41,024 bases of DNA, from the NCBI GenBank assembly GCA_018824205.1, contig JAHJGX010000071.1:1-41024 (forward strand), in the 5' to 3' direction. Positions 2,432-37,861 of the stretch are shown here, piece by piece. The position numbers and the translations under genes were made by a program. The notes beneath the pieces were generated by a model. The model saw nothing but the letters and a program-made list of their open reading frames with translations. It was not told the DNA's origin and did not search any database. The stretch comes from a bacterium (GTDB lineage Bacteria > Fidelibacterota > UBA2242). How positions within the stretch are numbered: the stretch's first letter is position 1; each line of letters starts with the position of its first letter.

Positions 2432-2911
2432 TTATGCTTCCGCAATTGTATCCAGTATCTTCAGTTGAAAAGACTGTCCCTGAAACAGGTTTTGAAACGT
2501 TGTAATGGACGGCCGTGAACAGAGCACCGCCCGCTGTCCCTGCAGGATTCCGGTATATTTGCCAAGCAATATGCAGCCATTGGTGTGAGTTTTCAGTCCT
2601 TTGGAAACGACACCCGCCCAGTTGCCGGAATGAATCAGGATAAAGGAACGGTCGGGAACCTCTGTTATCCAGTAGACCCGTCCGTATTTTTGTGAGATGC
2701 GGATTTGAACAGTATAAGTTCCTGAGGGAATACAGGAAATATTTCGTTGATTATTTTGCCAGGGAAGTTCCAGACTGTAACAATGAAAATTCCGAGAGAT
2801 CATAAGCCCCTCGGTCCCGTGATCGGAATGTCTCAATCGTATCAATGTCGCTCGATTCGAGCCGGCAGAAATTCCTTCGTCAGACATGCTTACTATCCCT
2901 TCAATAAGCAA
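2432..2911 (-). CDS. DUF5675 family protein (phage lysis-associated)
   Basis: Motifs ...CYSLELPWQNNQRNISCIPSGTYTVQIR...VPDRSFILIHSGNWAGVVSKGLKTHTNGCILLGK resemble DUF5675; true start may be the internal Met (MSDEGIS). Confidence 0.65.
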   Translation of the reverse strand: MLIEGIVSMSDEGISAGSNRATLIRLRHSDHGTEGLMISRNFHCYSLELPWQNNQRNISCIPSGTYTVQIRISQKYGRVYWITEVPDRSFILIHSGNWAGVVSKGLKTHTNGCILLGKYTGILQGQRAVLCSRPSITTFQNLFQGQSFQLKILDTIAEA

Positions 2912-3079
2912 ATGTTATCTTCTGTCTGTCAAATTATAGTAAGTAAAAACCGGGCGATTTAGACTTACCGCTTCTCCCACCAAAGAACGCATTAACATTA
3001 GTTCAATAAATCGGAAATGTCAAGGTTTTTCATTTAGTGATGTTATAAAATGAAAATCATTTATTCGAATTAAACACGT

Positions 3080-3103
3080 AGAGACGTTGCATGCAACGTC
3101 TCT
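3080..3103. repeat. 24-bp perfect palindrome AGAGACGTTGCATGCAACGTCTCT
   Basis: Read directly; located just downstream of the TonB receptor stop and followed on + strand by a T run. Confidence 0.9.
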
Positions 3104-3118
3104 GCACATGTTTTTTTA

Positions 3119-5452
3119 TTAAAGCTTAACCGATACCGAGACAAACACATTCCGGGTTGCGCCGGGCCAGTAATAGGCCCAATAGCCGTCCCATTCATAA
3201 CCGTATCCGAATGTTGAATACAGAGTATCGAAGATATTGTTCACTTTCACGCTCAGTTCCAGATGCCGAAAACTGATTCGAAAACCGCCGTCATAAAGCC
3301 AGTAATCCGGATTGGCGCCAATATTTTCATTATCAATGGTCTGTTTGCCAACATAGCGTGATGTCAGAAAAACAGAGAGATGGTTCACTGGCTTGACGGT
3401 CAAACTGCCATTAAAAAGAACACACGGCACATTGGGAATGGTATTTCCTTTTAAATCGCCAGTACTGAAAATATGTTCGCCAATGCTGCTATTCAGGTTC
3501 AATGACCAGTATTTTGAAGCTTGATAGCCGAACTCAATTTCAAGTCCCTGATGCAGTGTTTTCCCGGCCTGGTAATAATCGTACTCTCCCTCCTGTTCAA
3601 TATCGATATTCTTCAGCTGTTCATTTTTATAATTGATCCGGTAAAGATTCAGATCGATTTCAAGTTGCCGGATTCTATATCTGCCTCCTAATTCATAATC
3701 ATGAATTAATTCAGCCGAGGCTTTTTGGGGAGCATTCCATACATCGTCGGCTTCAATAATCTGGTCATCGGCCGGTTCCCGCTGGGCTTTACCGTAATTG
3801 GCAAAGACAAACAATTCATCAGAGAACGAATAAATCGCCCCCAGGCGCGGATTCAGAAAATTCCATTTTGCATCCAATTGATATCCGACAGCATGTCCGA
3901 TTTTCTTCTGATCCATATTCCAGTGAATGTATTGATATTGCAAATCGGCAATCAGTTTCAATTTTTTCAGCGGTTCGAAAGCAAAGTGTGCGAAACCGGT
4001 AGTGATTAGTTTTTCACCAATATAGTTATAATATTGATACCAGTCTTCGGAAATTAGAGACGATAAATCAGGATCTGAGAAATCGGCGATTTCCCCAAAA
4101 TGGTCGCCGGTGTAAGAACGAATCTCGCCACCGATATCAAGACGATATTTATCACGGATATAAGTTAGTGTCGGAATAATTCCAAAATAGTTATTGACGA
4201 TCCATTTCCTTCGCAAAAGGTCAGTTTTCATCTCCATTTCCAGAGAATCGGAATATTGATCATTAACATCCAGATTATAGGAGTAAATATCACATCCTTC
4301 TTTAAATACTTCGTAATATCCGCTTCCCTTTACTAAATAAGCAACATTACAGAAGTGAAGACGATCGCTGATCCGCCATGAGCTGTTCAGTGAATAAACT
4401 TGTTGTAAGAAGTCATCAAGGTAAGATTGATAGCCTGCCCGCCGCTTTTCACGGTCATCAATATTATCGGCAGAAACGCCGTCCCACATCAGATGACTGT
4501 TCTCATAGCCGACTAATGCTCTGAATTGATGCGTAAAGTTTTTACCGTCATATTCGACCCCAAAGGCTCCTGATTTTTGGACGGTATCATGAAAATCCCG
4601 ATAGCCTTCGGATTTAATTTGTGAAAGCCTTGCCGACATTTTTACTCTCTTATCGAAAAGCGCTCCACTAGTGGCTTTTAGATGGATTTTAGACGTATTG
4701 TACGAACCCGCACCCACATTCAGCGACAATTCCGGTTTATCGGACCCAATCGATGTAATCACATTTACCGATCCTCCAAAAGCCGAAGTGCCATAAAGGC
4801 TGTTCCCAATGCCGCGCTGTATCTGAACATCTTCGGCATCACTAAGAACATCGCCATGATCAACCCAATAAACCTGATGACTTTCATTATCATTCAAAGG
4901 CACATTATTCATCATCACCGCAATGCGGCTCTGATCAAAACCCCGAATCTGGATATAGGAATATCCGGTCCCATTGCCGCTTTCACTGTAGGAATAAACA
5001 CCCGGTTCCATCGCCAGAATCATAGGAACATCTTCAACCGTATAACGAGCTTTAATCTCTTCATTAGACAATGTCGAAAAAGCCACCGGGGATTTGCCTT
5101 TAACGGCTCTAGTTGCCGTCACAAAAACCTCTTCACCTGCTATAACTTCAGCCCTTAGATAGATATTACCAATAGAACTATTATAAACTATAAAGGAAGT
5201 ATCCCGAAAAGCAATGTGAGATATGGTTACTTTAACCGGTAATTTTTCAGATTTAACTTGAAAATCGCCTGTCTCGCCGGAATAGGTTCCCTCGCCGGTT
5301 GTCAGTAAAATATTGGCATATTCCACCGGTTTGCCGGTTTCAATGGACAGTAATTTTCCGCTGATTACATAATCTGTGGCAAAAACTGATTTAAAAATGA
5401 AAAACGGGAAAAGAAAAATTAAGAAAAACGTTAGAAATGATTTGTGATTCAT
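3119..5452 (-). CDS. TonB-dependent outer-membrane receptor with N-terminal carboxypeptidase-regulatory-like domain; predicted thiamin/precursor receptor
   Basis: 777 aa: signal peptide, CarboxypepD_reg-like start (YVISGKLLSIETGKPVEYANILL), plug (VPMILAMEPGVYSYSESGNGTGYSYIQIRGFDQSRIAVMMNNVPLND), beta barrel ending in aromatic-rich terminus; TPP riboswitch immediately upstream. Confidence 0.9.
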   Translation of the reverse strand: MNHKSFLTFFLIFLFPFFIFKSVFATDYVISGKLLSIETGKPVEYANILLTTGEGTYSGETGDFQVKSEKLPVKVTISHIAFRDTSFIVYNSSIGNIYLRAEVIAGEEVFVTATRAVKGKSPVAFSTLSNEEIKARYTVEDVPMILAMEPGVYSYSESGNGTGYSYIQIRGFDQSRIAVMMNNVPLNDNESHQVYWVDHGDVLSDAEDVQIQRGIGNSLYGTSAFGGSVNVITSIGSDKPELSLNVGAGSYNTSKIHLKATSGALFDKRVKMSARLSQIKSEGYRDFHDTVQKSGAFGVEYDGKNFTHQFRALVGYENSHLMWDGVSADNIDDREKRRAGYQSYLDDFLQQVYSLNSSWRISDRLHFCNVAYLVKGSGYYEVFKEGCDIYSYNLDVNDQYSDSLEMEMKTDLLRRKWIVNNYFGIIPTLTYIRDKYRLDIGGEIRSYTGDHFGEIADFSDPDLSSLISEDWYQYYNYIGEKLITTGFAHFAFEPLKKLKLIADLQYQYIHWNMDQKKIGHAVGYQLDAKWNFLNPRLGAIYSFSDELFVFANYGKAQREPADDQIIEADDVWNAPQKASAELIHDYELGGRYRIRQLEIDLNLYRINYKNEQLKNIDIEQEGEYDYYQAGKTLHQGLEIEFGYQASKYWSLNLNSSIGEHIFSTGDLKGNTIPNVPCVLFNGSLTVKPVNHLSVFLTSRYVGKQTIDNENIGANPDYWLYDGGFRISFRHLELSVKVNNIFDTLYSTFGYGYEWDGYWAYYWPGATRNVFVSVSVKL

Positions 5453-5457
5453 AGCAA

Positions 5458-5537
5458 TCTCCCTTCGCTGGCATTATCCAGATCAGGTTCATAGGGTATT
5501 TTCTCAGCCTTTCATATGTTAGTGAAAAGCACCCCCC
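5458..5537 (-). promoter_or_regulatory. TPP (THI-box) riboswitch
   Basis: Reverse complement GGGGGTGCTTTTCACTAACATATGAAAGGCTGAGAAAATACCCTATGAACCTGATCTGGATAATGCCAGCGAAGGGA contains the hallmark CTGAGA, ACCCT and GAACCTGATCTGGATAATGCCAGCGAAGGGA segments. Confidence 0.96.
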
Positions 5538-5619
5538 AGAACTTCAGTTTTAAAATATCACGGTTCTAATTTAATAACTATTCATTACTAAAATCAAATA
5601 GTATTAAAAAGAATATTAG

Positions 5620-5712
5620 CGGGAACGCCTGGGAGTCGAACCCAGCTTCCCGATTGTGTCGGGAACAGCGATTTTGAAGACCGTGGCACCCACCGGGGTT
5701 GCAATCATTCCC
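5620..5712 (-). tRNA. selC: tRNA-Sec (anticodon TCA)
   Basis: Minus strand GGGAATGATTGCAACCCCGGTGGGTGCCACGGTCTTCAAAATCGCTGTTCCCGACACAATCGGGAAGCTGGGTTCGACTCCCAGGCGTTCCCG: CTTCAAA anticodon loop, 7-bp variable arm (TTCCCGA/TCGGGAA), CTGGG-TTCGACT-CCCAG T arm, extended acceptor GGGAATG/GCGTTCCC; CCA not encoded. Confidence 0.87.
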
Positions 5713-15416: not shown

Positions 15417-15452
15417 AAGCCGTCTGTCCTAAATGAACAGACGGCTTTTTTA
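15417..15452 (+). terminator. Rho-independent terminator (convergent PPIase/ApbE junction)
   Basis: AAGCCGTCTGT-N9-ACAGACGGCTTTTTTATT, 11-bp stem. Confidence 0.92.
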
Positions 15453-16436
15453 TTGGTTAAACCCTGATGATTTGAAAATTTTCCCATCGTGCCGGACGAT
15501 TAATCCCTCCGTACTCGGTATTTTTTCCAGTAACTCTATACCCTGTCTCGCACCGGCTACAAATATCCCTGTTGCCAGTGCATCGGCTTGTTCTGTCGTA
15601 GGAGCGATGATAGTGACAAACTGGCAGGAATCGGCCGGTAATCCGGTCTTTGGATTTAACAGATGATGAAACCGTTTTTCATTGTAAAAAAAGAACTTCT
15701 GATAATCGCCAGACGTCACCACCGCTCCGCTGTCTATTTCTATGATTTTCAGGATTTCCTGCTGAACTCGTGGATTTTGAATTCCTACCCGCCATTTTTT
15801 CCCATCAGCCCGGCATAATACCCGTAAATCACCGCCCGCATTCACCAGGGCACCTTTAACGCCGTTCTCAGACAAGATTTCAATCGCCCGGTCAACCGCG
15901 TAACCCTTGGCAATTCCTCCGGTCGTCAGCATTGTCCTCGGCGATGCAGATAAGAGCATATTATTTTCGGGATCAACTGTTAAGGTCTGGTAATTCACGT
16001 ACGGCAGTACGGATTCAATTTGGTCCTCAGTCGGTGGTTTCGGATTTTCCGATTTAAAATCCCACAGTGGCATTAACACACCGACAGTCATATCGAAGCA
16101 ACCATTTGTGAGTCTTGATACTTCCAGTCCTCTCTGAATCAAACTTAATACTTCTTCAGGCATTGCGACCCTGTCGCCCGTCCGGTGGCTGAATTCATAC
16201 AACGGACTTTCCGGATTGCCCTCGTAAAACAGCGAACCGATCCGGTTAATCTCAGTCATTGCTGCTGCAATGGCCATATTCGCATGGTATTCGGAATTGT
16301 CTAACACGGTAATTTCAATCACCGTACCCATTGCGAATCGGGTAACCTGATATGGTTTTAATGGACTGTCAGAGTTGCAGCCGGACAGACCAGCGATAAT
16401 TCCAATTAGAATCAGTGTAAAAAATACTTTTTTCAT
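15450..16436 (-). CDS. apbE: FAD:protein FMN transferase ApbE (lipoprotein)
   Basis: LSGCNSD lipobox; FAMGTVIEITV; GGIAKGYAVDRAIEIL; NAGGDLRV; next to rnf genes whose products need covalent FMN. Confidence 0.93.
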   Translation of the reverse strand: MKKVFFTLILIGIIAGLSGCNSDSPLKPYQVTRFAMGTVIEITVLDNSEYHANMAIAAAMTEINRIGSLFYEGNPESPLYEFSHRTGDRVAMPEEVLSLIQRGLEVSRLTNGCFDMTVGVLMPLWDFKSENPKPPTEDQIESVLPYVNYQTLTVDPENNMLLSASPRTMLTTGGIAKGYAVDRAIEILSENGVKGALVNAGGDLRVLCRADGKKWRVGIQNPRVQQEILKIIEIDSGAVVTSGDYQKFFFYNEKRFHHLLNPKTGLPADSCQFVTIIAPTTEQADALATGIFVAGARQGIELLEKIPSTEGLIVRHDGKIFKSSGFNQ

Positions 16437-16458: not shown

Positions 16459-16899
16459 TTATTGACAAATCTCTTTCATGGAGAAAACAGAAAAATCCGT
16501 CGAGGCTTTTTTCGTTGCCCAGATTCGGGTAAGCCATCCGGCTAGAAACAGCACCAGAACTGCAATAGTGAATTGAAGAACTTCCGGTGGAATCCCGATC
16601 AACGGTGCTTTAATAAATACTCCGGCAAGAATAATGGAAATCAGAAAACCCAGTAACGGAAATCCGTATTGCATAAACGTCAGTTGCAGTTGATTCTTAT
16701 CGGATTGTTCAATGAGAATCCGGTCATCAATTTTCGCGTTCAGTGTATTTTTTAATCTGAGGGTTCGCTTTCCCGAATCGCCCGGCCGGCAAATCATCCG
16801 GGCACCACAGGAATGGCAATGATCGTTTTCAAGCAATTCGATCTCGGCAATATTATCGATTATATCAACAATAACGCCTATTTCAAAACTCTCATCCAT
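16459..16899 (-). CDS. rseC: RseC/MucC-family SoxR-reducing / Rnf-associated membrane protein
   Basis: N-terminal HCHSCGARMIC, KIDDRILIEQSD, two TM segments; directly downstream of rnfB. Confidence 0.8.
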   Translation of the reverse strand: MDESFEIGVIVDIIDNIAEIELLENDHCHSCGARMICRPGDSGKRTLRLKNTLNAKIDDRILIEQSDKNQLQLTFMQYGFPLLGFLISIILAGVFIKAPLIGIPPEVLQFTIAVLVLFLAGWLTRIWATKKASTDFSVFSMKEICQ

Positions 16900-17733
16900 C
16901 TATTTCTCGTCGGCTTTACCAACAATTACAATACATTTGGTCGGGCATTTTTCGGTCGGCAGAACGAGCTCCCTGGTGTATTTTTCATGATCCACAACAG
17001 CCAGATTGTCGGTTACATTGAAACCAATCCCATCCACTGCTTTCTCACAAATCTTGCAGCCGATACAGGCCGCGCTGCAAACCGCCCTGGAATTTTTACC
17101 ATTGTCCTTATTTCGGCACAGTACAAAGACATGATGGCTGAGTGGATGCAATTCGATAACATTACGCGGACAGGCTTCCACACAATTCCCGCAACCGGTA
17201 CACTTGGCCCGATCCACAACCGGAATACCTTTGTCGTTCATATGAATAGCATCAAAGGGACAGACCGTCACACAATCACCATATCCCATACATCCGTAAC
17301 TGCAGGCCCGTTCGCCGCCGCCGACGAAGGTCGCTCCGATACACGACTGAATGCCTTCATAATCGGCTTTCTTTTTAACGGTACCATCGCCACCCTGGCA
17401 CATAACAATCGCCACCCGTCGTTCACCGGATTCCACTTCTACACCTAAGATCCGGGCAATTTTTTCAGCAGCGTCGGGGCCACATACCGGACAAGCGCTC
17501 AATTGAGTCTTACCTCCGGTCAGGTTCTCGGCAAAATTCGCACAACCAGCATAGCCGCAACTGCCGCAGTTCGCACCGGGCAACAGATCGGCAACTATTT
17601 CAATTTGGGGATTTTCTTCAACATGTAATTTCTTGTTTGCGAGGGTAATCAGAATTGAGAAAATGAGTCCCAATCCACCCATACTCAGTACCGCACCAAT
17701 AATATCCGCATATATCAGAGAGCTGTCAACCAT
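16900..17733 (-). CDS. rnfB: Electron transport complex subunit RnfB
   Basis: N-terminal TM, LLPGANCGSCGYAGCANFAENL...SACPVCGP, ferredoxin clusters GYGDCVTVCPFDAI and CTGCGNCVEACPRNVI. Confidence 0.96.
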   Translation of the reverse strand: MVDSSLIYADIIGAVLSMGGLGLIFSILITLANKKLHVEENPQIEIVADLLPGANCGSCGYAGCANFAENLTGGKTQLSACPVCGPDAAEKIARILGVEVESGERRVAIVMCQGGDGTVKKKADYEGIQSCIGATFVGGGERACSYGCMGYGDCVTVCPFDAIHMNDKGIPVVDRAKCTGCGNCVEACPRNVIELHPLSHHVFVLCRNKDNGKNSRAVCSAACIGCKICEKAVDGIGFNVTDNLAVVDHEKYTRELVLPTEKCPTKCIVIVGKADEK

Positions 17734-17746
17734 TTCATTACTCCAT

Positions 17747-18322
17747 TTATATCAGTCCGGAAAAACCCATAAACGCCAACGCCAGACAACCGGCAACAAT
17801 CATTGTTATCGGCGCACCTTTGAAATATTCAGGAACATCGGCCAGTTCCAATTCCTCACGGATACCTGCCATAATGACGATTGCCAGTGTAAATCCCACA
17901 CCGGCACTGAATCCAAATATGATGCTTTCAATGAAATTATATTCCTTTAAAACCAGGAATAATGCAACTCCCAGAATAGCACAGTTGGTAGTGATTAAAG
18001 GCAGGAAAATTCCCAGCGCATCATACAGCGGTTTACTGACTTTTTTAATGAACATCTCAACCAGCTGCACCAGAGACGCGATTACCAGAATAAAGGACAC
18101 TGTCTGTAAAAACTGGAGATTCAATCCCTCAAGAATGTACCGGTTAACCAACCAGGCTACCGCCGCCGTTAATGTCATCACGAAGGTTGTCGCCATTCCC
18201 ATGCTGATCGCCGGGCCGATTTTTTTTGAAACACCGACAAACGGGCAGATACCCAAAAAATTTACGAGGACGTAATTATTTACAATCACCGCTGACAGAA
18301 ATATAATAACCAAGTTTGCCAT
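17747..18322 (-). CDS. rnfA: Electron transport complex subunit RnfA
   Basis: NNYVLVNFLGICPFVGVSKK, TTNCAILG, GFTLAIVIMAGIREELELADVP. Confidence 0.96.
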   Translation of the reverse strand: MANLVIIFLSAVIVNNYVLVNFLGICPFVGVSKKIGPAISMGMATTFVMTLTAAVAWLVNRYILEGLNLQFLQTVSFILVIASLVQLVEMFIKKVSKPLYDALGIFLPLITTNCAILGVALFLVLKEYNFIESIIFGFSAGVGFTLAIVIMAGIREELELADVPEYFKGAPITMIVAGCLALAFMGFSGLI

Positions 18323-18930
18323 TATTTAGCCCTCCTTGCGTTCAGCCAGTTGCTGATTCCAATCATCAATCCTAATGTCAAAAATGCACCCGGTTGCAAA
18401 ACCATCACCATCCATGGTTCAAAACTTAGTGGCATTATCTGGACGGCGAAAATGGTTCCGACGCCCAGAAGTTCCCGGATTGAGCCTAATATCGTTAGCG
18501 TAATCGTAAAACCAATGCTCATTCCCAGTGCATCAATAACCGAGCGCCCTACCGGGTTTTTCGATGCAAAGGCTTCCTGACGACCCAAAATGATACAGTT
18601 TACAACGATCAGCGGTACGAACGGCCCGAGGGCTTTGCTGATATCTGGAACATGGGCAGCCAACATTTTATCTGCAATAGTTACAAACGTAGCGATGACA
18701 ATAATAAATGTCGGTATCCGTACCTCTTTGGGGATAATGTTACGGGCCAGCGATATAATTGCACTGGACATAACCAGCGTAAATATCACTGCCAGCCCCA
18801 TGGAAAATCCGTTGATCGCCGAATTGGTAACCGCCAGCGTCGGACAAAGCCCAAGCAGCATGCGCAGCACCGGATTCTCGTCCCACAGTCCTTTGAGAAA
18901 TTCTTTGGGATGACTTGTCTTACTTGCCAT
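18322..18930 (-). CDS. rnfE: Electron transport complex subunit RnfE
   Basis: NPVLRMLLGLCPTLAVTNSAINGFSMG, VNCIILGRQEAFASKNPVGRSVIDALGMSIGFT. Confidence 0.96.
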   Translation of the reverse strand: MASKTSHPKEFLKGLWDENPVLRMLLGLCPTLAVTNSAINGFSMGLAVIFTLVMSSAIISLARNIIPKEVRIPTFIIVIATFVTIADKMLAAHVPDISKALGPFVPLIVVNCIILGRQEAFASKNPVGRSVIDALGMSIGFTITLTILGSIRELLGVGTIFAVQIMPLSFEPWMVMVLQPGAFLTLGLMIGISNWLNARRAK

Positions 18931-18931
18931 A

Positions 18932-20020
18932 TCAGTTCACCTTCCGGTTTAGATAAGTAGCGCGATACCCTTGTATCGAAGCATTCAACATCTTGATAAT
19001 TGCATCTGAGGAAACGGTCGCACCGGATATTGACTGAACCTCCCCATTCTGTTTATTCGGAGTTTCGGTCACGGTTGAAATAACTTTCTGTACATACAGG
19101 TCAGTAAATTGCTTTAAAAACCATTCCGGGTCGCTGTTTGTCGTGTCATTGACCAAACGGGTTCCCCATCCTTCTGTTTCATCCTGTTCGATAATTTCAA
19201 TGCTCAATAGTTTCGAAAAATCCGGATTCATGCAAGCTAAAACTTTTATTGTGCTCTGAAAACCTTCGCCACTGGCAATAAACGCAACCCCAGTAACGGA
19301 ACCGCTGTCATTTTTTTTCAGAAAATAGGTCTTATTATCGATGGTTACTATTTTCGCACCTTCGGGAACCAGTTCCGGACCAAATGATGTTTCATTGATT
19401 GCATCAATCGCCGGACATACTCCAATTTTCAAATCGGTATTATTCTTCAATATCATGCTGTTTTCTATAAGTGCAGCGTTAATGATATCAATAACGGCTT
19501 TGGATGAGATGGTCGCTCCGGTAATGGCCATGATTTCACCGGCTGATTTGTCGGGAGCCTGGTTTTTCAGATATGTAATTTTATTCGTTACATTCAGTTC
19601 ATCAAACTGATTGGGAAACCATTCCGGATTAGCCTTGCTGGCGGGATCGGTTTCAATCTTGGTTCCCAGCCCGGGCGTCTCTTTCTGTTCCAGAATTCTG
19701 ATTTTTACAATTTGAGTCAAGCCGGCATCCATTCCAACCAGTATACGGAGTTTACTCTGGAAACCGTTTCCTTCTGTCAGGAATGCAATTCCTTTTACAT
19801 TGTTCTGAGCATCGTATCCAAAGTAAAACTGTTTATTTTCATAAAACTGTTCTTCAATTTTATCACATCCCGGCAATACACTGCTCAAGGCATCATTCAG
19901 GACTTTATTCTGATGCGCTTCAATCAGCGGGCTGGTATGCAAATTGAGAAATGATAACAACAGTCCCGATAAGACAGCGGTTGCAGTCAAAACTAAAATT
20001 AGTCGATAGGATTTGGTCAT
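18932..20020 (-). CDS. rnfG: RnfG-type subunit with two tandem FMN-binding domains
   Basis: Start corrected to MTKSYRLILVLTATAVLSG (the ORF-track start lies inside rnfD). Two FMN_bind units: ...ETPGLGTKIE...EIMAITGATISSKAVIDIIN and ...ETEGWGTRLV...EVQSISGATVSSDAIIKMLN. Confidence 0.92.
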   Translation of the reverse strand: MTKSYRLILVLTATAVLSGLLLSFLNLHTSPLIEAHQNKVLNDALSSVLPGCDKIEEQFYENKQFYFGYDAQNNVKGIAFLTEGNGFQSKLRILVGMDAGLTQIVKIRILEQKETPGLGTKIETDPASKANPEWFPNQFDELNVTNKITYLKNQAPDKSAGEIMAITGATISSKAVIDIINAALIENSMILKNNTDLKIGVCPAIDAINETSFGPELVPEGAKIVTIDNKTYFLKKNDSGSVTGVAFIASGEGFQSTIKVLACMNPDFSKLLSIEIIEQDETEGWGTRLVNDTTNSDPEWFLKQFTDLYVQKVISTVTETPNKQNGEVQSISGATVSSDAIIKMLNASIQGYRATYLNRKVN

Positions 20021-21048
20021 TTCTTCAGCTCCCCGAATATTTTTGGTCTGGTGTAGCGGTTGATCAAGGGTACAAATGCGTTCATAAACAGAATCGAGTA
20101 CATCACGCCCTCCGGCAATCCACCAAACAGTCGTATGATTATCAGTACAGCGCCCATTCCAAAGCCATATATCCATGTGCCTTTCGGAGTGACCGGTGAT
20201 GTCACCATATCGGTTGCCATAAAAAAGGCGCCCAGCATCAATCCGCCGGAAAACAGGTGAAACACCGGATCGGGATACTGTTCCGGATTTATAATCCACA
20301 ACAAACCGCCCAGAATAAATACAGTGCCCAGATAACTGGCCGGAATGCGCCAATCGGCGTATTTCTTTACCAAAAGGTAGACACCGCCAATAATGATCAG
20401 CAGCGCGCTTGTTTCACCGATACAGCCCCCGATTTTTCCCATAAACATATCGAAATATGGCGTCATTATTTTTTCAAACTTAAATGATCCAAGCGGAGTG
20501 GCGGTCGTAATTGCGTCGATACCAACCGGGGCCGTCCAGGTTGTTATTTTTACCGAAAAACTTGCCTGCAGGAATGCCCGTCCTAAAAGCGCCGGGTTGA
20601 AAATATTATACCCCAATCCGCCAAATATCTGCTTACCGATTGCGATGGCAAAGACAGCGCCAACAGCGGCATATGCTTTGGGAAATGCCGGTGGTAAAGT
20701 CATCGTCAGGAGCAGCCCAGTCAGGACCGCACTGCCATCGGCGACACTGGATTCCCGTCCACGCATTTTATTGATAACAATTTCCGTCGCAACCGCTGCG
20801 ATCACCGACGCGAGAACTGTCAATAAAACGTTAAACCCAAAATTATACATACCGTAAACAACAGCCGGCATCAGCGCTGCGATCACAGTCCACATGATTT
20901 TCGGCACTCTGTCTATCGTTGCCATATGCGGCGAAGAACTCAACAGATACTGTGGCTCCGGTTTCTTTTCCTTCCCAACCGGCTTGGGTTTCGGTTTTTC
21001 GGTATTGGCCGGTTCTTCATTTGGAATGGGTTGTTTCGTATCTTCCAT
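20017..21048 (-). CDS. rnfD: Electron transport complex subunit RnfD
   Basis: LLSSSPHMATIDRVPKIMWTVIAALMPAVVYGMYNFG; DAITTATPLG (covalent FMN site); FNPALLGRAFLQASF. Confidence 0.96.
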   Translation of the reverse strand: MEDTKQPIPNEEPANTEKPKPKPVGKEKKPEPQYLLSSSPHMATIDRVPKIMWTVIAALMPAVVYGMYNFGFNVLLTVLASVIAAVATEIVINKMRGRESSVADGSAVLTGLLLTMTLPPAFPKAYAAVGAVFAIAIGKQIFGGLGYNIFNPALLGRAFLQASFSVKITTWTAPVGIDAITTATPLGSFKFEKIMTPYFDMFMGKIGGCIGETSALLIIIGGVYLLVKKYADWRIPASYLGTVFILGGLLWIINPEQYPDPVFHLFSGGLMLGAFFMATDMVTSPVTPKGTWIYGFGMGAVLIIIRLFGGLPEGVMYSILFMNAFVPLINRYTRPKIFGELKK

Positions 21049-21071: not shown

Positions 21072-22409
21072 TTATACAGTTGCCAGTTTTGCTTTTCTTT
21101 TCATCTCGTTGATCCGCAGTTTACCAATCCGGATTCGCTGGACAAGCGGAATTTGTGACGGGCATACAAAGGCACATGAACCACATTCGACGCAGTTCAG
21201 AATCCCTAAATCTTCCGCCATCTGCCAGTTCTCCACCTGGGCAAAGCGTGCCAGGCGGGTCGGTAACAGATTCATCGGACAGGCGCCAATACAGGTTCCG
21301 CACTGAATGCAGGGATATTCTTTGTGTTTAATTACTGAAAGATCGGTCAGACATAAAATCCCGCTGGTTGCTTTAATCACCGGAACATTCAGGGTGTGCT
21401 GGGTAATACCCATCATCGGTCCACCCATAATAATTTTTACCGTATTATCTGTAAGTCCGCCACAGAAGTCGATCAGATTCTGAAAAGGTGTTCCAATTCT
21501 TGCAATCACATTTTTTGGTTCTTTGATACCGTCACCGGTGATTGACACAACGCGCTCAATAAGTGGTTTATTTTTAGTTACTGCTTCTGCGACAGCGATG
21601 GCAGTGCCGACATTATTGACGACAACTCCCACATCCAATGGTAATCCACCGGTTGGTACGTTGCGATTAATTACTGCTTTGATAAGCATTTTTTCGGCAC
21701 CCTGAGGATACTTGACCTTTAATGGAATAACCTCAATATTATTAAAAGCAGATGTTGCTTTTTCCATCGCCGCAATTGCATCGGGTTTATTGTTTTCAAC
21801 ACCGATCACACCGCGCGAAACATTCAGTGCTTTCATCAATATTCTGGTTCCCAGCGCCACTTCTTCCGACTGTTCGACCATCATACGATGATCAGCGGTC
21901 AAATAGGGTTCGCATTCACAGCCGTTCAGTACAAATGTATCAATTTTCTTCTCTTTTGAAGGGGATAATTTAACATGAGTCGGAAACGCCGCTCCGCCTA
22001 AACCAACGATTCCTGCTTTTTGCACCAGATCAACAATCTCATCAGTTAAAAGGTTTTCCCAGTTGCTGGTTTCATCGAACGATTTAATCCATTCATCTTT
22101 ACCATCGCCGGTAATATGAATCATGAGGCCATTGATACCCAAGGGGTGCGGGAAATTATCGATCGTTTTTACCGTGCCTGAAATTGTCGCGTGGATCGGA
22201 CTGGAGACAAAACCGGTACTCTGACCAATAATCTCACCGGTTTTTACTGTCTGCCCTTTTTCAACTAATGGCCTGCAGGGAGCGCCAATATGCTGGTGAA
22301 CCGGAATAAACACCTCTTCCGGAATCGGAAGCCGTTCCAGCGTTTTATGTTCTGATAAGAATTTATACTCTTCAGGATGCACACCTTTTTTAAACGTCTT
22401 TAATTTCAT
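21072..22409 (-). CDS. rnfC: Electron transport complex subunit RnfC
   Basis: Start set at MKLKTFKKGVHPEEYK; GLGGAAFPTHVKLSP; NGCECEPYLTADHRMM; two 4Fe-4S motifs CIQCGTCIGACP and CVECGSCAFVCP. Confidence 0.95.
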   Translation of the reverse strand: MKLKTFKKGVHPEEYKFLSEHKTLERLPIPEEVFIPVHQHIGAPCRPLVEKGQTVKTGEIIGQSTGFVSSPIHATISGTVKTIDNFPHPLGINGLMIHITGDGKDEWIKSFDETSNWENLLTDEIVDLVQKAGIVGLGGAAFPTHVKLSPSKEKKIDTFVLNGCECEPYLTADHRMMVEQSEEVALGTRILMKALNVSRGVIGVENNKPDAIAAMEKATSAFNNIEVIPLKVKYPQGAEKMLIKAVINRNVPTGGLPLDVGVVVNNVGTAIAVAEAVTKNKPLIERVVSITGDGIKEPKNVIARIGTPFQNLIDFCGGLTDNTVKIIMGGPMMGITQHTLNVPVIKATSGILCLTDLSVIKHKEYPCIQCGTCIGACPMNLLPTRLARFAQVENWQMAEDLGILNCVECGSCAFVCPSQIPLVQRIRIGKLRINEMKRKAKLATV

Positions 22410-22665
22410 CGAAACATAACTCCTGTTAAACCCTCTGTTCCATGACAAAAAAATGCCAGCCAAATTTATAAGCTTCATTTTTAAGATGCCCGAACTTTTT
22501 TCCGACTATATTTAATAATTTTTTACAACCAGTATCTTTAACTATTTTTACTATATTTTTTCAATTAGGAGAGAACTGTTCTGATCTAAGAGAATCTTAT
22601 TTTTAGAAACATTTCTGACAATTGGTTTTTAGATAAAATGGATGTAAGTTATTATGCTTTTTGAA

Positions 22666-32983: not shown

Positions 32984-34093
32984 TTGAGCAGTAATTCCCC
33001 GATAAATTTACACTATTATCTCAGCGATCAGGAAACCTTACTATTGTTTAATATTGATTATTCCGGCAATAAAATTACCGGGATCAGGCATCCATTTTCG
33101 GGTCAAATCAGGGAAATTCAAATAATTACCGATTGTAATCCCGAACAGCCAATGATTCCCTATCCGGATATTTACAAATCTCCGGATACACTTGATTTGC
33201 AATTGGCCCAAATCATGGCGATTGAAACTCATTATCATTGCGAGGTGCCGGATTATGCCCGTTTAGTCCGTTTACTTCTCATGGAAATGCATCGTTTACT
33301 TAATCACTTCAATTATTTCAGTACACTTGCTTTTGCAATTCAGTTTCCGAAACTCTTAGAGAAATCAGTCGCGAACAGTGCTATTATACGCGCACTTCTG
33401 TTAAATATCGATAAAGTGCAATCTCTGAATAAATACTTTGTTATCGGTGGAATTGCGACGGACCTGCCGACAGGTTTTATTGAAACCCTGACAGATTCAA
33501 TTCATGTAATTCAAAAAAACCTGGGTTATTATGAAAGACAATTGGTTCAAAAAACACTATTGTCCAATCTGCTTGAAGATATTGGTATTATCAGTCAGAA
33601 ACATGCAAAAACCTGTTCGCTGTCCGGACCCAATTATTACGCATCCCTCCCACATACAGAATACAGTCTATTTACAAACAATCTGTTTCAAAAAAGTGTA
33701 CACCTGGAACCGATAAAAACCGATTTTCGCAAAGGAACAATTGGCGATTCTTGGAACCGTTCCTGGATCCGGTTTATGGAAATTGAACAATCCCTTAGAT
33801 TAATCCTTCAGCTAACCGGCGTCATCATGAAAACAGACATTAATCTGATGATTCAGCCGTTTTTACCAGGCCGGGATTCTGATTTTATGGTTAATTTTAA
33901 CCATGCAGAGGGCCAGATTATCAGCCATATCAGCAAGAGTCAAAATAATCATTATATCACCGGCAAACATCAATACCCTGTAATAAATGTGATTAAAAAC
34001 CTGGATTCAATCCTCGTTGGCGAGAGAATTTCATCGGCAAAAATTGTATTAAGCAGTCTCAATCTCAATCCTGTTAAATATCTCATTCACTAA
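32984..34093 (+). CDS. Divergent NuoD-like (49 kDa / NiFe-hydrogenase large-subunit fold) protein
   Basis: TTG start. YARLVRLLLMEMHRLLNHFNYFSTLAF ~ NuoD 'RAQYIRVLFSELTRILNHLL'; IGGIATDLPTGF ~ 'PGGVHQDLPEGL'; GYYERQLVQKTLLSNLLEDIGIISQKHAKTCSLSGPNYYAS ~ NuoD; GTIGDSWNRSWIRFMEIEQSLRLI ~ '[24 protein letters not shown]'. Confidence 0.78.
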   Translation: MSSNSPINLHYYLSDQETLLLFNIDYSGNKITGIRHPFSGQIREIQIITDCNPEQPMIPYPDIYKSPDTLDLQLAQIMAIETHYHCEVPDYARLVRLLLMEMHRLLNHFNYFSTLAFAIQFPKLLEKSVANSAIIRALLLNIDKVQSLNKYFVIGGIATDLPTGFIETLTDSIHVIQKNLGYYERQLVQKTLLSNLLEDIGIISQKHAKTCSLSGPNYYASLPHTEYSLFTNNLFQKSVHLEPIKTDFRKGTIGDSWNRSWIRFMEIEQSLRLILQLTGVIMKTDINLMIQPFLPGRDSDFMVNFNHAEGQIISHISKSQNNHYITGKHQYPVINVIKNLDSILVGERISSAKIVLSSLNLNPVKYLIH

Positions 34094-35157
34094 TGAATAG
34101 TATGTTGATCTTAACATTGCACAGCACGATAAATACCGGATTTTTAACAATCCCGGATCCTAATTACCAAATTCTGTTATCACATGCCATTTCGTTGTTC
34201 ATTTTATTATTTTTATCCTTTCAGATTATTTCGGCCGTAACCGCCAATAATTTTACTCCTGCGAAATCAGATCGACATCTTGTAGCAAAATTACTCTCCC
34301 CTGTTAAATCCTTGCTGCATCATTTCCTCAATCGTCGAAGAAACCTGACAAAGTTCAACATCAGAAAGGAGTTTTTATCCTTTAATCTCCTCTATTCACT
34401 GATGTCTCTGATCAATATTTGCGCACTAATCCTGTTCCCAATCAGCCAACAATATTCCGGTGTCCAGTTGGATTACAGTTGCATGATTGTCATCCTATGT
34501 CTGCTGTTGAACCTGATAGTTTATGCAACTGGTGTGAGTTACTCCAATAAAAATACGACTGCCGTTGTTCTCCGGAACAGTCGATTAATATTCACTGTAT
34601 TAATAGTAATTATCGTCGCGAGTTTATCGGTTAGCGGTTCACTGCACTCGTTCAGAATAAGTTCGATTGTTAAAATTCAGCAAGACCGTTTTTTATTTAC
34701 ACTGCCCGCCTGGAATATCCTGCGCAATCCATTATTGTTCCTAAATGCAATACTCTTTTTTGTATACACTGTATTACTGGCTCAGTTGCTTAATCAGACA
34801 GAACAGCCTGTTCCATTTAAGATTCCCTGCCATCCCTTAAAAACAGCCGACACGTTCAGCTACAGGGTCGTTGAGTTTTGGAAATTCAGTTTTCTTGTGC
34901 TAATTACTTTTTATTATATTTTCCTGTTTTGGGGCGCCTATTCATCTCCATTTTACGGTGGGAGTTCTGTGATAAGCAATATCACAGCAATTGCATGGTT
35001 ATTAATGAAAATCTGTACTTTCTTGATTTTGATCAGGTTCGTATACCGCTCAATCCCGCATTTAATTGAAGAACAGATTCTTCAGCTAACATATACATTC
35101 ATTTTTCCGATTCAGATAATATCACTGGTGTTGGGATTAATTTTTTTGCATAACTAA
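34093..35157 (+). CDS. Divergent NuoH-like membrane protein
   Basis: 354 aa, about 8 TM segments, nuo-order position after NuoD-like; QPVPFKIPCHPLKT...FSYRVVEFWKFSFLVLITFYYIFLFWG aligns by eye with NuoH 'PFDLPEAE.E...EYSG..FALFFLAEY'. ATGA-type overlap with previous gene. Confidence 0.65.
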   Translation: MNSMLILTLHSTINTGFLTIPDPNYQILLSHAISLFILLFLSFQIISAVTANNFTPAKSDRHLVAKLLSPVKSLLHHFLNRRRNLTKFNIRKEFLSFNLLYSLMSLINICALILFPISQQYSGVQLDYSCMIVILCLLLNLIVYATGVSYSNKNTTAVVLRNSRLIFTVLIVIIVASLSVSGSLHSFRISSIVKIQQDRFLFTLPAWNILRNPLLFLNAILFFVYTVLLAQLLNQTEQPVPFKIPCHPLKTADTFSYRVVEFWKFSFLVLITFYYIFLFWGAYSSPFYGGSSVISNITAIAWLLMKICTFLILIRFVYRSIPHLIEEQILQLTYTFIFPIQIISLVLGLIFLHN

Positions 35158-35179: not shown

Positions 35180-35650
35180 TTGTCCGTATCACTCACAATC
35201 TTGATTCTTTTGATCTTGGGTACAGCCGCTATTTGGGTATTTACTCAAAATAAACTGATAAAATCAATACTGTTCCCAGTCAATTTGTTGCTATTGTATC
35301 TCCTTTTCTGGAAAATTGCCGGGCCTGTATTCGCGCATCTTTGTCTAATTGCAGGATTTCTGATTGTATTTGCACAACTGTTGCTTTCTCCAGATGCCGA
35401 ACCTGAAGGAAGCACCCGCCTAAAACTTCGATTTAAACATGTGATTTCATTGGGCACCATTGCACTTTATATCATCACATCATTGATAGTTTTTACAGAA
35501 GCCGCCAGACAATCCGGATCCCTTGAATTCCCTGACTCTATGATACCTGCAGAATTTTTCAATCTTATATGGATATATATTATTTTACTGGCTCTGTTTT
35601 CAATCCAGATATATATTTTATTGAGAGGAGTCTTTAAAACGGATGAGTAA
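35180..35650 (+). CDS. Divergent NuoJ-like membrane protein
   Basis: 156 aa, about 5 TM, TTG start, gene order and size; low sequence identity. Confidence 0.5.
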   Translation: MSVSLTILILLILGTAAIWVFTQNKLIKSILFPVNLLLLYLLFWKIAGPVFAHLCLIAGFLIVFAQLLLSPDAEPEGSTRLKLRFKHVISLGTIALYIITSLIVFTEAARQSGSLEFPDSMIPAEFFNLIWIYIILLALFSIQIYILLRGVFKTDE

Positions 35651-35933
35651 CTTTTTTCTGTACATGGTTGGAGCATTCGGACTGGTTTCCATTGGAATAC
35701 TGGGTTGTATTATCAACCGTTCTTTGACATTGAAATTACAATCCGTTTTCCTTATCATTGCTGGTGCATGCATCGCCTACTTCAGCCTTGGAAACAGATT
35801 CGGACATACCAGGCAGATTCTTCTTTATGCGTCTGTCATTTTAATCATATTTTTATTCATTTTTTTAACATCGGTTATCATTTATAGTAAATCCGGAAAC
35901 GGAAAAATCACTGATGTATCGGAGAAACCATGA
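35643..35933 (+). CDS. Divergent NuoK-like membrane protein
   Basis: 96 aa, 3 TM, gene order and size; overlaps neighbours on both sides. Confidence 0.55.
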   Translation: MSNFFLYMVGAFGLVSIGILGCIINRSLTLKLQSVFLIIAGACIAYFSLGNRFGHTRQILLYASVILIIFLFIFLTSVIIYSKSGNGKITDVSEKP

Positions 35934-37861
35934 CATTTATCCTGGCACTAATATTTTTTGTCCTATTTTCGTTGCTGCTGATTAATAACCTGGCACCGGA
36001 TTTCAGCATCAAATACCGTCGCTTGCACACCTGGCCTGTATTTCTTTTTACGGTCCTCTCATACGGCTTGCTCATCTCGCAGATTATATCGGGAAATCCA
36101 AACTTCAGCACCAGCATAACTTGCGATTGGTTGCGGTTAGGCTCAACAAACCTGAACATAACATTTTACGTCAGCAATCCGACAGTGATATTCGGAGTAA
36201 TGTTGGCGACGTTGTTTCTCGTTCAAATTATCAGCCTTTATGCCCGTCAAGGCAGTAATAGTCAGCTCGGACCGCTGGATAATTGGGCCAGACACCAGAT
36301 CAACTGTATTTATACATTGATAATTGCCGGGTTGTTGGTTCTGATGGTTGACAGTCTCCTGATTCTGTTTTGCGGAATGGTTCTGATCAGCGGAATTGTC
36401 ATCTATAGAAATCTTTTAATAAACAGCGGAAAAACTTCAACAAATAGTCTGATCTGGTTCTTAATTGCAGATTCAATTTATCTGATTGCAGTTTTATATG
36501 CTTACACTCTCTTTCATACTGTGTCAATTTCCGAGATGGCTTCAATAGTCAATGGCAACATTCATGGTCTTCCATTTAGCGTTGTTGGATTTCTGATTGT
36601 ACTGTCAATTATTATAAAACTAATCCAAATTCCGTTTTCAGAACAGACCAACAGTACAAAATCATTTACTGATCAAAGCGTTTTCAGTATCAGTGCAATT
36701 TCAATTATCATGATTCTGCTGCTCAGATTCATAAATATACTTTGCAGCTCGTGTCTGACATTTATTTTGATTATCGGGATTATTATCGCATTGTTTTCTG
36801 CGTTTTCATCGATGTTCAAAAATAGTTCGGAACCTGCATATAAATCACTGCTACTCGCTCAGACCGGAATATTTTTAATCATCATCGGCAGTCAGGCAAG
36901 CATAAACGCCCTGTTGTTCATCGTCAGTTTCACCTTCGCCAACTTACTGTTAATCTTCAGTCAGAATGCGATTCTACAATTTCAGTTGGCAACGGACTCC
37001 AGGAATTCCCTGTATAAATCCGGCAGCGTATGGATATTTTTATTTGCAGCCTTTGGCATTAGCGGCTTGCTGCCAGGTTCGGGCTTTATTCCTCGGCATA
37101 CGCTGATTCAACAGTATTTGAATTTCGCATTGGACAATCCGTTGTTTTGGGTGGTTCTCATTTTTACCAGCCTTTGTCTGTTGCTGATATCGTATGCATC
37201 ATTCAGATATTTTTTCAACAACCTTTCCCGCTGGAAAACCAAAAATACTTCCTGTTCAACACTACAGCTTTACGGTGGAGTTCTGTTTGGAATATTGATT
37301 CTCTTAAACCTTTATCCGGTCTTTACCTTGCCCCGTTTTAATCCGATAACTTCAGACAATTGGATTTACCGGATAATGGGCGGCTCCGAAATTTTTTCCA
37401 ATGTCGTCGACATTCAATTATATACGGCTCTGGGTATAACGGTCGGAATACCACTTGTCGGTTTTTTCCTGGCATTGTTAACCTATCATTTTCAGCTTAT
37501 TAAAATATCTTCAATCCATTCGGTTTTCAAACCTATAAAACAACTATATTCTTTTTCGAATACTTTGTTCGCAAATTTCATAAAGTCCGTTTCCGAAATT
37601 TTTTCCGGGTTATCAGCTGCGTTTATTTCTATTGAAGAAACCGTGATCCAAAAATTATTAATGACAAGCTCAGAATTTTTAAATTCAATAGCGGCCGGTT
37701 TTGCATCATTAAACCAAAAAATTACCAGCCGAAAACCATCGACAACTGTCTTGAATCGCATTTCAGATAGCATTTTAGTATCATGGGAAAAACATGATCT
37801 GTTAATTCCATTCCTGTTAGTTATTATTATGATCATCATCTTTGCGTTAAGCATTATTTAA
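35930..37861 (+). CDS. Divergent NuoL-like antiporter-fold protein
   Basis: 643 aa polytopic, size and order of NuoL; FGISGLLPGSGFIPRHTLIQQYLNF ~ NuoL 'LIGLPPFSGFFSKDEIL'; long amphipathic C-terminal region. Confidence 0.65.
   Translation: MTFILALIFFVLFSLLLINNLAPDFSIKYRRLHTWPVFLFTVLSYGLLISQIISGNPNFSTSITCDWLRLGSTNLNITFYVSNPTVIFGVMLATLFLVQIISLYARQGSNSQLGPLDNWARHQINCIYTLIIAGLLVLMVDSLLILFCGMVLISGIVIYRNLLINSGKTSTNSLIWFLIADSIYLIAVLYAYTLFHTVSISEMASIVNGNIHGLPFSVVGFLIVLSIIIKLIQIPFSEQTNSTKSFTDQSVFSISAISIIMILLLRFINILCSSCLTFILIIGIIIALFSAFSSMFKNSSEPAYKSLLLAQTGIFLIIIGSQASINALLFIVSFTFANLLLIFSQNAILQFQLATDSRNSLYKSGSVWIFLFAAFGISGLLPGSGFIPRHTLIQQYLNFALDNPLFWVVLIFTSLCLLLISYASFRYFFNNLSRWKTKNTSCSTLQLYGGVLFGILILLNLYPVFTLPRFNPITSDNWIYRIMGGSEIFSNVVDIQLYTALGITVGIPLVGFFLALLTYHFQLIKISSIHSVFKPIKQLYSFSNTLFANFIKSVSEIFSGLSAAFISIEETVIQKLLMTSSEFLNSIAAGFASLNQKITSRKPSTTVLNRISDSILVSWEKHDLLIPFLLVIIMIIIFALSII

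Follow-up and report, generated by a model that had tools for sequence, protein, structure and literature searches.

The RnfG subunit of the Rnf complex, a main energy converter in anaerobes, is encoded in the window analysed here (41,024 nucleotides of a genome from Candidatus Neomarinimicrobiota, which are uncultured marine bacteria) as a tandem of two FMN_bind domains, and aligned sequences display a clear difference between the flavin pockets of first and second domains. We favour, with moderate confidence, an explanation in which domain 1 performs the normal electron shuttling of RnfG and domain 2 would carry a tethered second flavin of changed redox behaviour, acting as a side branch or an electron store.

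The rnfG gene runs on the minus strand from 20020 to 18932 and encodes 362 residues plus a stop codon, its ATG start overlapping the rnfD stop; the 363 residues of the sequence-only reading, which gave no strand, had counted the stop codon as a residue. The assignment of 18932..20020 as a tandem rnfG relies on the reading frame, on Pfam and NCBIfam matches and on the separate testing of each half. The gene is located between rnfD and rnfE in a complete operon, all on the minus strand, in the order rnfC (21072..22478), rnfD (20017..21048), rnfG, rnfE (18322..18930), rnfA (17747..18322), rnfB (16900..17733), a gene for an RseC/MucC-like membrane protein (16459..16899), which has the same position in the operons of relatives, and apbE (15450..16436). 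Pfam and NCBIfam matches to this row of genes confirm the complete Rnf cluster with adjacent apbE that had been proposed. A genome search detected a single ApbE (FAD:protein FMN transferase), the one inside the rnf operon, and thus the same enzyme must also serve RnfD and a separate Nqr operon on contig C222. RnfD retains its Thr in a site of the covalent-flavin type (DAITTATPLG, by site comparison), as do those other Rnf-type RnfDs in the phylum whose site is readable. Its TTAT in place of TGAT was considered as a correlate of tandem RnfG and discarded, the letter before ATPLG varying across the phylum without relation to the tandem.

Further flavin-related genes are present in the same genome (G000). 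The separate nqr operon (G000:C222 19000-32304) is complete and includes a canonical single-domain NqrC with ETPGLG and SGAT. A small lipoprotein-like FMN_bind protein with an SGAT motif (L044, about 5300-5700; G000:C220:9489-9686, in a 134-aa open frame) adjoins a flavodoxin-like gene and is a possible additional ApbE substrate. Elsewhere in the window, two genes (32984-35157) match the NADH dehydrogenase 49-kDa and NADHdh membrane subunits, the frames at 35180-37861 match no Pfam family, and the cluster from 32984 to about 40777 is possibly hydrogenase or complex-I-like.

Domain 1 (residues 36-196; 19433..19915) is a canonical RnfG FMN_bind domain by alignment and Pfam, with ETPGLGT at residues 114-120, Lys152 and, further on, AITGATISSKAV, which contains Thr170. 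Its ETPGLG (19664..19681) is the flavin-pocket motif by sequence and by comparison with NqrC, and Thr170 (codon 19511..19513), the predicted FMN attachment residue, aligns with Thr185 of A. woodii RnfG. Domain 2 (residues 207-362; 18935..19402) is a second FMN_bind domain by alignment, Pfam and model; it displays ETEGWGT at residues 281-287, lacks a Lys at the position of Lys152 and continues into SISGATVSSDAI with Thr335 (codon 19016..19018), predicted from sequence and alignment to be the second attachment residue. In its altered pocket motif, ETEGWG (19163..19180), Trp replaces Leu. The motifs quoted from both halves in the sequence-only reading had been read correctly. All three hallmarks of RnfG (ETPGLG, the pocket Lys and the Thr of (S/T)GAT) are found in domain 1, whereas domain 2 holds only the Thr/GAT and ET parts.

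Each half is recognised as FMN_bind in its own right. On the whole protein Pfam FMN_bind matches two stretches (8.6e-31), the first at residues 86-184, and when tested alone domain 1 (2.8e-17, 63.6 bits) and domain 2 (4.1e-13, 50.2 bits) both exceed the curated cut-off of 22 bits. The NCBIfam model rnfG TIGR01947 likewise matches two stretches, scoring 140.3 bits for the whole protein against a cut-off of 102. The two tandem domains with intact attachment motifs are therefore upheld. The predicted model of domain 2 is of moderate quality (pLDDT 66.6, pTM 0.70), and its top 18 hits among PDB structures are all NqrC or RnfG, which points to an FMN_bind fold for the second motif, the property on which the tandem proposal had been made to depend. 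The full-length AlphaFold model (5 rows) is poor (pLDDT 50) and was not used for distances; within it the stretch between the domains, about residues 197-220, is predicted to be poorly ordered. There is one strong transmembrane helix, near residues 7-25, and no comparable second hydropathy peak. With this single N-terminal anchor both FMN_bind domains should face the periplasm, on the same side of the membrane.

The assembly that contains the window is fragmented (275 contigs), so that the tandem might be thought a product of assembly or binning, or of two genes fused by a sequencing error. This has a negligible probability, as the same architecture of 360-376 residues occurs in MAGs of several projects (loci L005, L006, L007 and L008; G006, G063 and G068 of other genera) and fragments fitting it occur in G002, G004, G011, G012 and G015. 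These independent genomes rule out an assembly artefact.

The distribution of the tandem was followed in 23 genomes of the order and 245 of the phylum; the four named relatives are MAGs of Candidatus Neomarinimicrobiota. Tandem RnfGs form three sets. Set (i), in the family of the window, comprises genera g1 (represented by five genomes, in some of which contig ends divide the gene), g2 and g6; set (ii) belongs to genus g3 of the same family (G006, plus G012 at a contig edge), and set (iii) to G063 and G068 of genus g26, in another family. One-domain RnfGs of about 195-215 residues are found in the sister genera g4, g5 and g7, in other g26 members and in the other lineages sampled. The possibility, raised at the outset, that a tandem is simply the rule in the clade thus holds in part: it is present in four of the seven genera of the window's family and is not the rule in the phylum. 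The earlier statement that canonical RnfG has one FMN_bind domain is right. Within the phylum the tandem is derived; one domain is present in the sister genera and in every other single RnfG that was examined. The operon order is otherwise identical in tandem and single-domain relatives. With both forms in sister genera and the same gene order, the effect of the extra domain is testable by comparison. Outside the phylum, a plasmid search gave four weak matches, each covering at most half of the query; an annotated copy from Monoglobus has about 254 residues.

Some tandem loci have peculiarities of their own. In G006 (L039 = G006:C201, about 2480-3090 and 3655-4215) short inserted genes interrupt the rnf operon on both sides of rnfA, separating it from rnfE and from rnfB, and by eye their products resemble a GxxExxY protein and an S23 (four-helix-bundle) protein; the rnf operon of its relative G012 has no gaps like these. 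In G063 and G068 (L071, L066) a short stretch (e.g. SVMENDKTVEYTF) is inserted into the first domain ahead of the FMN_bind core and is absent in single-domain relatives.

A tree of 52 domains rejects a single clade for all second domains (p-AU 1e-4). The g26 second domains are placed inside g26 and those of g3 with the g3 first domain (support 96/95). The second domains of set (i) form a long branch of uncertain placement, and the test does not reject a common origin for both sets in the family of the window (p 0.19). The tandem arose at least two times, and three times in the best tree, two of the origins being certain and the third likely. The two halves are least alike in set (i) (35-41% identity), closer in set (iii) (51-53%) and closest in set (ii) (70%), consistent with different ages. 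Sequence and tree together support gain of the second domain by duplication of the soluble part of RnfG itself.

The pocket was compared over the 31 alignment columns in which at least 95% of the 40 first and single domains agree, against 12 second domains. Leu118, the Leu of ETPGLG, is present in 40/40 first and single domains and in none of the 12 second domains, which have W, C or I instead; Lys152 is present in 39/40 and 1/12, respectively. Of the 31 columns, these are the two at which all three sets have a different residue in most of their second domains. Both map to the flavin site of NqrC. Borshchevskiy et al. describe ETPGLG and Lys211 as absolutely conserved and located in the NqrC flavin pocket (PMC4348036), where Leu180, equivalent to Leu118, and Leu149 squeeze the isoalloxazine (PMC4348036). 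Lys152 sits 18 residues ahead of the flavinylated Thr, matching NqrC Lys211. If the three sets are independent, the chance of sharing the loss of these two columns is about 1.4e-4 in a simple draw, with values of 0.003 to 0.07 for three sets under other definitions and 0.06 for sets (i) and (iii) only, all with a conservation threshold chosen after seeing the data. On these alignments, convergent loss of Leu118 and Lys152 across the sets is likely.

A second domain that has lost two pocket residues in nearly all cases might be a degenerating duplicate with no redox role, retained only for structure or docking. Domain 2 does evolve faster than domain 1 between G000 and G003 (83% versus 93% identity), and set (ii) contains two exceptions, a TCAT in place of TGAT in G012 and the pocket motif ETPEIG in G006, which may indicate that its second domains are relaxing; the TCAT of G012 would fit degeneration. 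Decay would, however, be expected to strike the flavinylation motif early, and this motif persists, the attachment Thr in 12/12 and the whole GAT in 11/12 second domains. Invariant in all of them are also the Glu and Thr of ET, an aromatic at 254, W300, Q304, F305 and N346. Thr335 and Phe254 align with Thr185 and Tyr113 of A. woodii RnfG, and the A. woodii FMN-G variant (T185A, Y113A, FMN-site residues) is described as having lost growth and activity (PMC11889175). The A. woodii flavinylation site reads EIQAITGST, so the absence of an Asp at -6 from EVQSISGAT does not argue against flavinylation. For close pairs the dN/dS of domain 2 (YN00) is 0.12 (G000/G003), 0.15 (G009/G013) and 0.20 (G063/G068), indicating that purifying selection maintains domain 2. 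Two of these pairs show weaker constraint on domain 2 than on domain 1, and the third shows the opposite. Degeneration is accordingly improbable, and domain 2, judged from its sequence, probably serves as a modified second electron carrier and not as a redundant duplicate.

In the published Rnf electron path, electrons leave RnfB for the RnfA/E cluster and then reach the FMN of RnfG, which travels between that cluster and RnfD to deliver them (PMC11889175, PMC12174285). By homology domain 1, which adjoins the membrane anchor and has the canonical pocket and so fits the normal RnfG step, would take electrons from the RnfA/E [2Fe-2S] cluster and deliver them to the FMN of RnfD. The intact motifs suggest that ApbE probably flavinylates both domains, making two flavins in tandem RnfG likely. 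In domain 2 the Leu clamp is replaced and the Lys lost, changes that, from flavoprotein chemistry, should shift the potential and the anionic semiquinone stability of the flavin held there, so that its redox behaviour should differ. This systematic loss of two residues makes a concrete, testable prediction on the redox properties of domain 2.

Where the second flavin would act in the path is harder to place. It might be a bridging relay between RnfA/E and RnfD in an extended wire along the U-shaped route, such that domain 1 need not swing. A swinging movement of RnfG/NqrC between RnfA/E and RnfD has been described, and in the structure the AE1-FMN(G) distance exceeds 20 A (PMC11889175, PMC12174285), a gap that a second flavin could shorten. 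Yet one would expect a relay to retain the canonical pocket, and domain 2 has lost its Leu and Lys; in addition, the linker between the domains is predicted to be poorly ordered and close relatives function with a single domain. We regard such a relay as unlikely, and the extended electron wire of the sequence-only reading is reduced to a possibility, given a diverged flavin pocket on a linker predicted to be disordered. These same two features speak for a functionally distinct second carrier more than for an additional step of the same kind.

For such a distinct carrier, the probable and best-fitting role would be an electron store or a side branch of the kind that Méheust et al. propose for multi-flavinylated RnfG (PMC8238504). 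Domain 2, on its linker, could meet domain 1 and draw off or feed in electrons, and might thereby form a side branch or store facing the periplasm; these are the least certain steps, and any direction of electron flow through domain 2 is a guess. A search of the genome for one multiheme family, Cytochrome_C7, gave no match, and no electron-acceptor gene is among the operon neighbours, which are of housekeeping or regulatory type and encode a Cpn60 chaperonin, a PpiC-type protein, a glycosyltransferase, TPR proteins, a sensor kinase and a sigma-54 response regulator. More tentatively, second domains that arose two or three times and each lost the same two pocket residues could represent a recurrent re-tuned flavin branch. 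If true, the innovation would be a recurrent one, in which a second, re-tuned flavin in the periplasm gives the Rnf complex a branched electron path.

Compared with known systems, single-domain RnfG (TIGR01947; C. tetanomorphum 7zc6_G, A. woodii 9eri_G) shares the N-terminal anchor, the FMN_bind fold and the operon place with the tandem, and ETPGLG and (S/T)GA(T) with its domain 1; the tandem adds a full C-terminal FMN_bind domain with an altered pocket. NqrC of Na+-NQR (4u9s, 4xa7) is homologous to the RnfG domains in its FMN_bind domain and pocket but, unlike tandem RnfG, it is a single domain, retains ETPGLG and Lys and belongs to a different operon. The soluble proteins SaFMN3 and CbFMN4 have serial FMN_bind domains with covalent FMN shown after ApbE co-expression (PMC10339131). 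In contrast to tandem RnfG they are not Rnf subunits, and their domains are more than 80% identical, with one potential for SaFMN3 (PMC10339131), against 35% identity between the RnfG halves. The closest counterparts are the "multi-flavinylated RnfGs" reported by Méheust et al. in 2021, with a second, bifurcated electron route proposed (PMC8238504). Like the tandem they have more than one FMN_bind domain in the RnfG of an RNF cluster (PMC8238504), and the tandem combines more than one FMN_bind domain in a protein predicted to be extracytosolic with an apbE gene in the cluster. The subset named there is from Christensenellales and has a multiheme domain (PMC8238504). The main text of that paper has no word beginning "Marinimicrobia", and the passages of that text considered here make no mention of divergence in the second-domain pocket (PMC8238504). 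Multi-flavinylated RnfG is thus already published, and the tandem in Neomarinimicrobiota is not new in kind; relative to the passages of PMC8238504 considered here, what appears new is the distribution in the phylum, the occurrence of single and tandem RnfG in sister genera and the altered pocket of the second domain.
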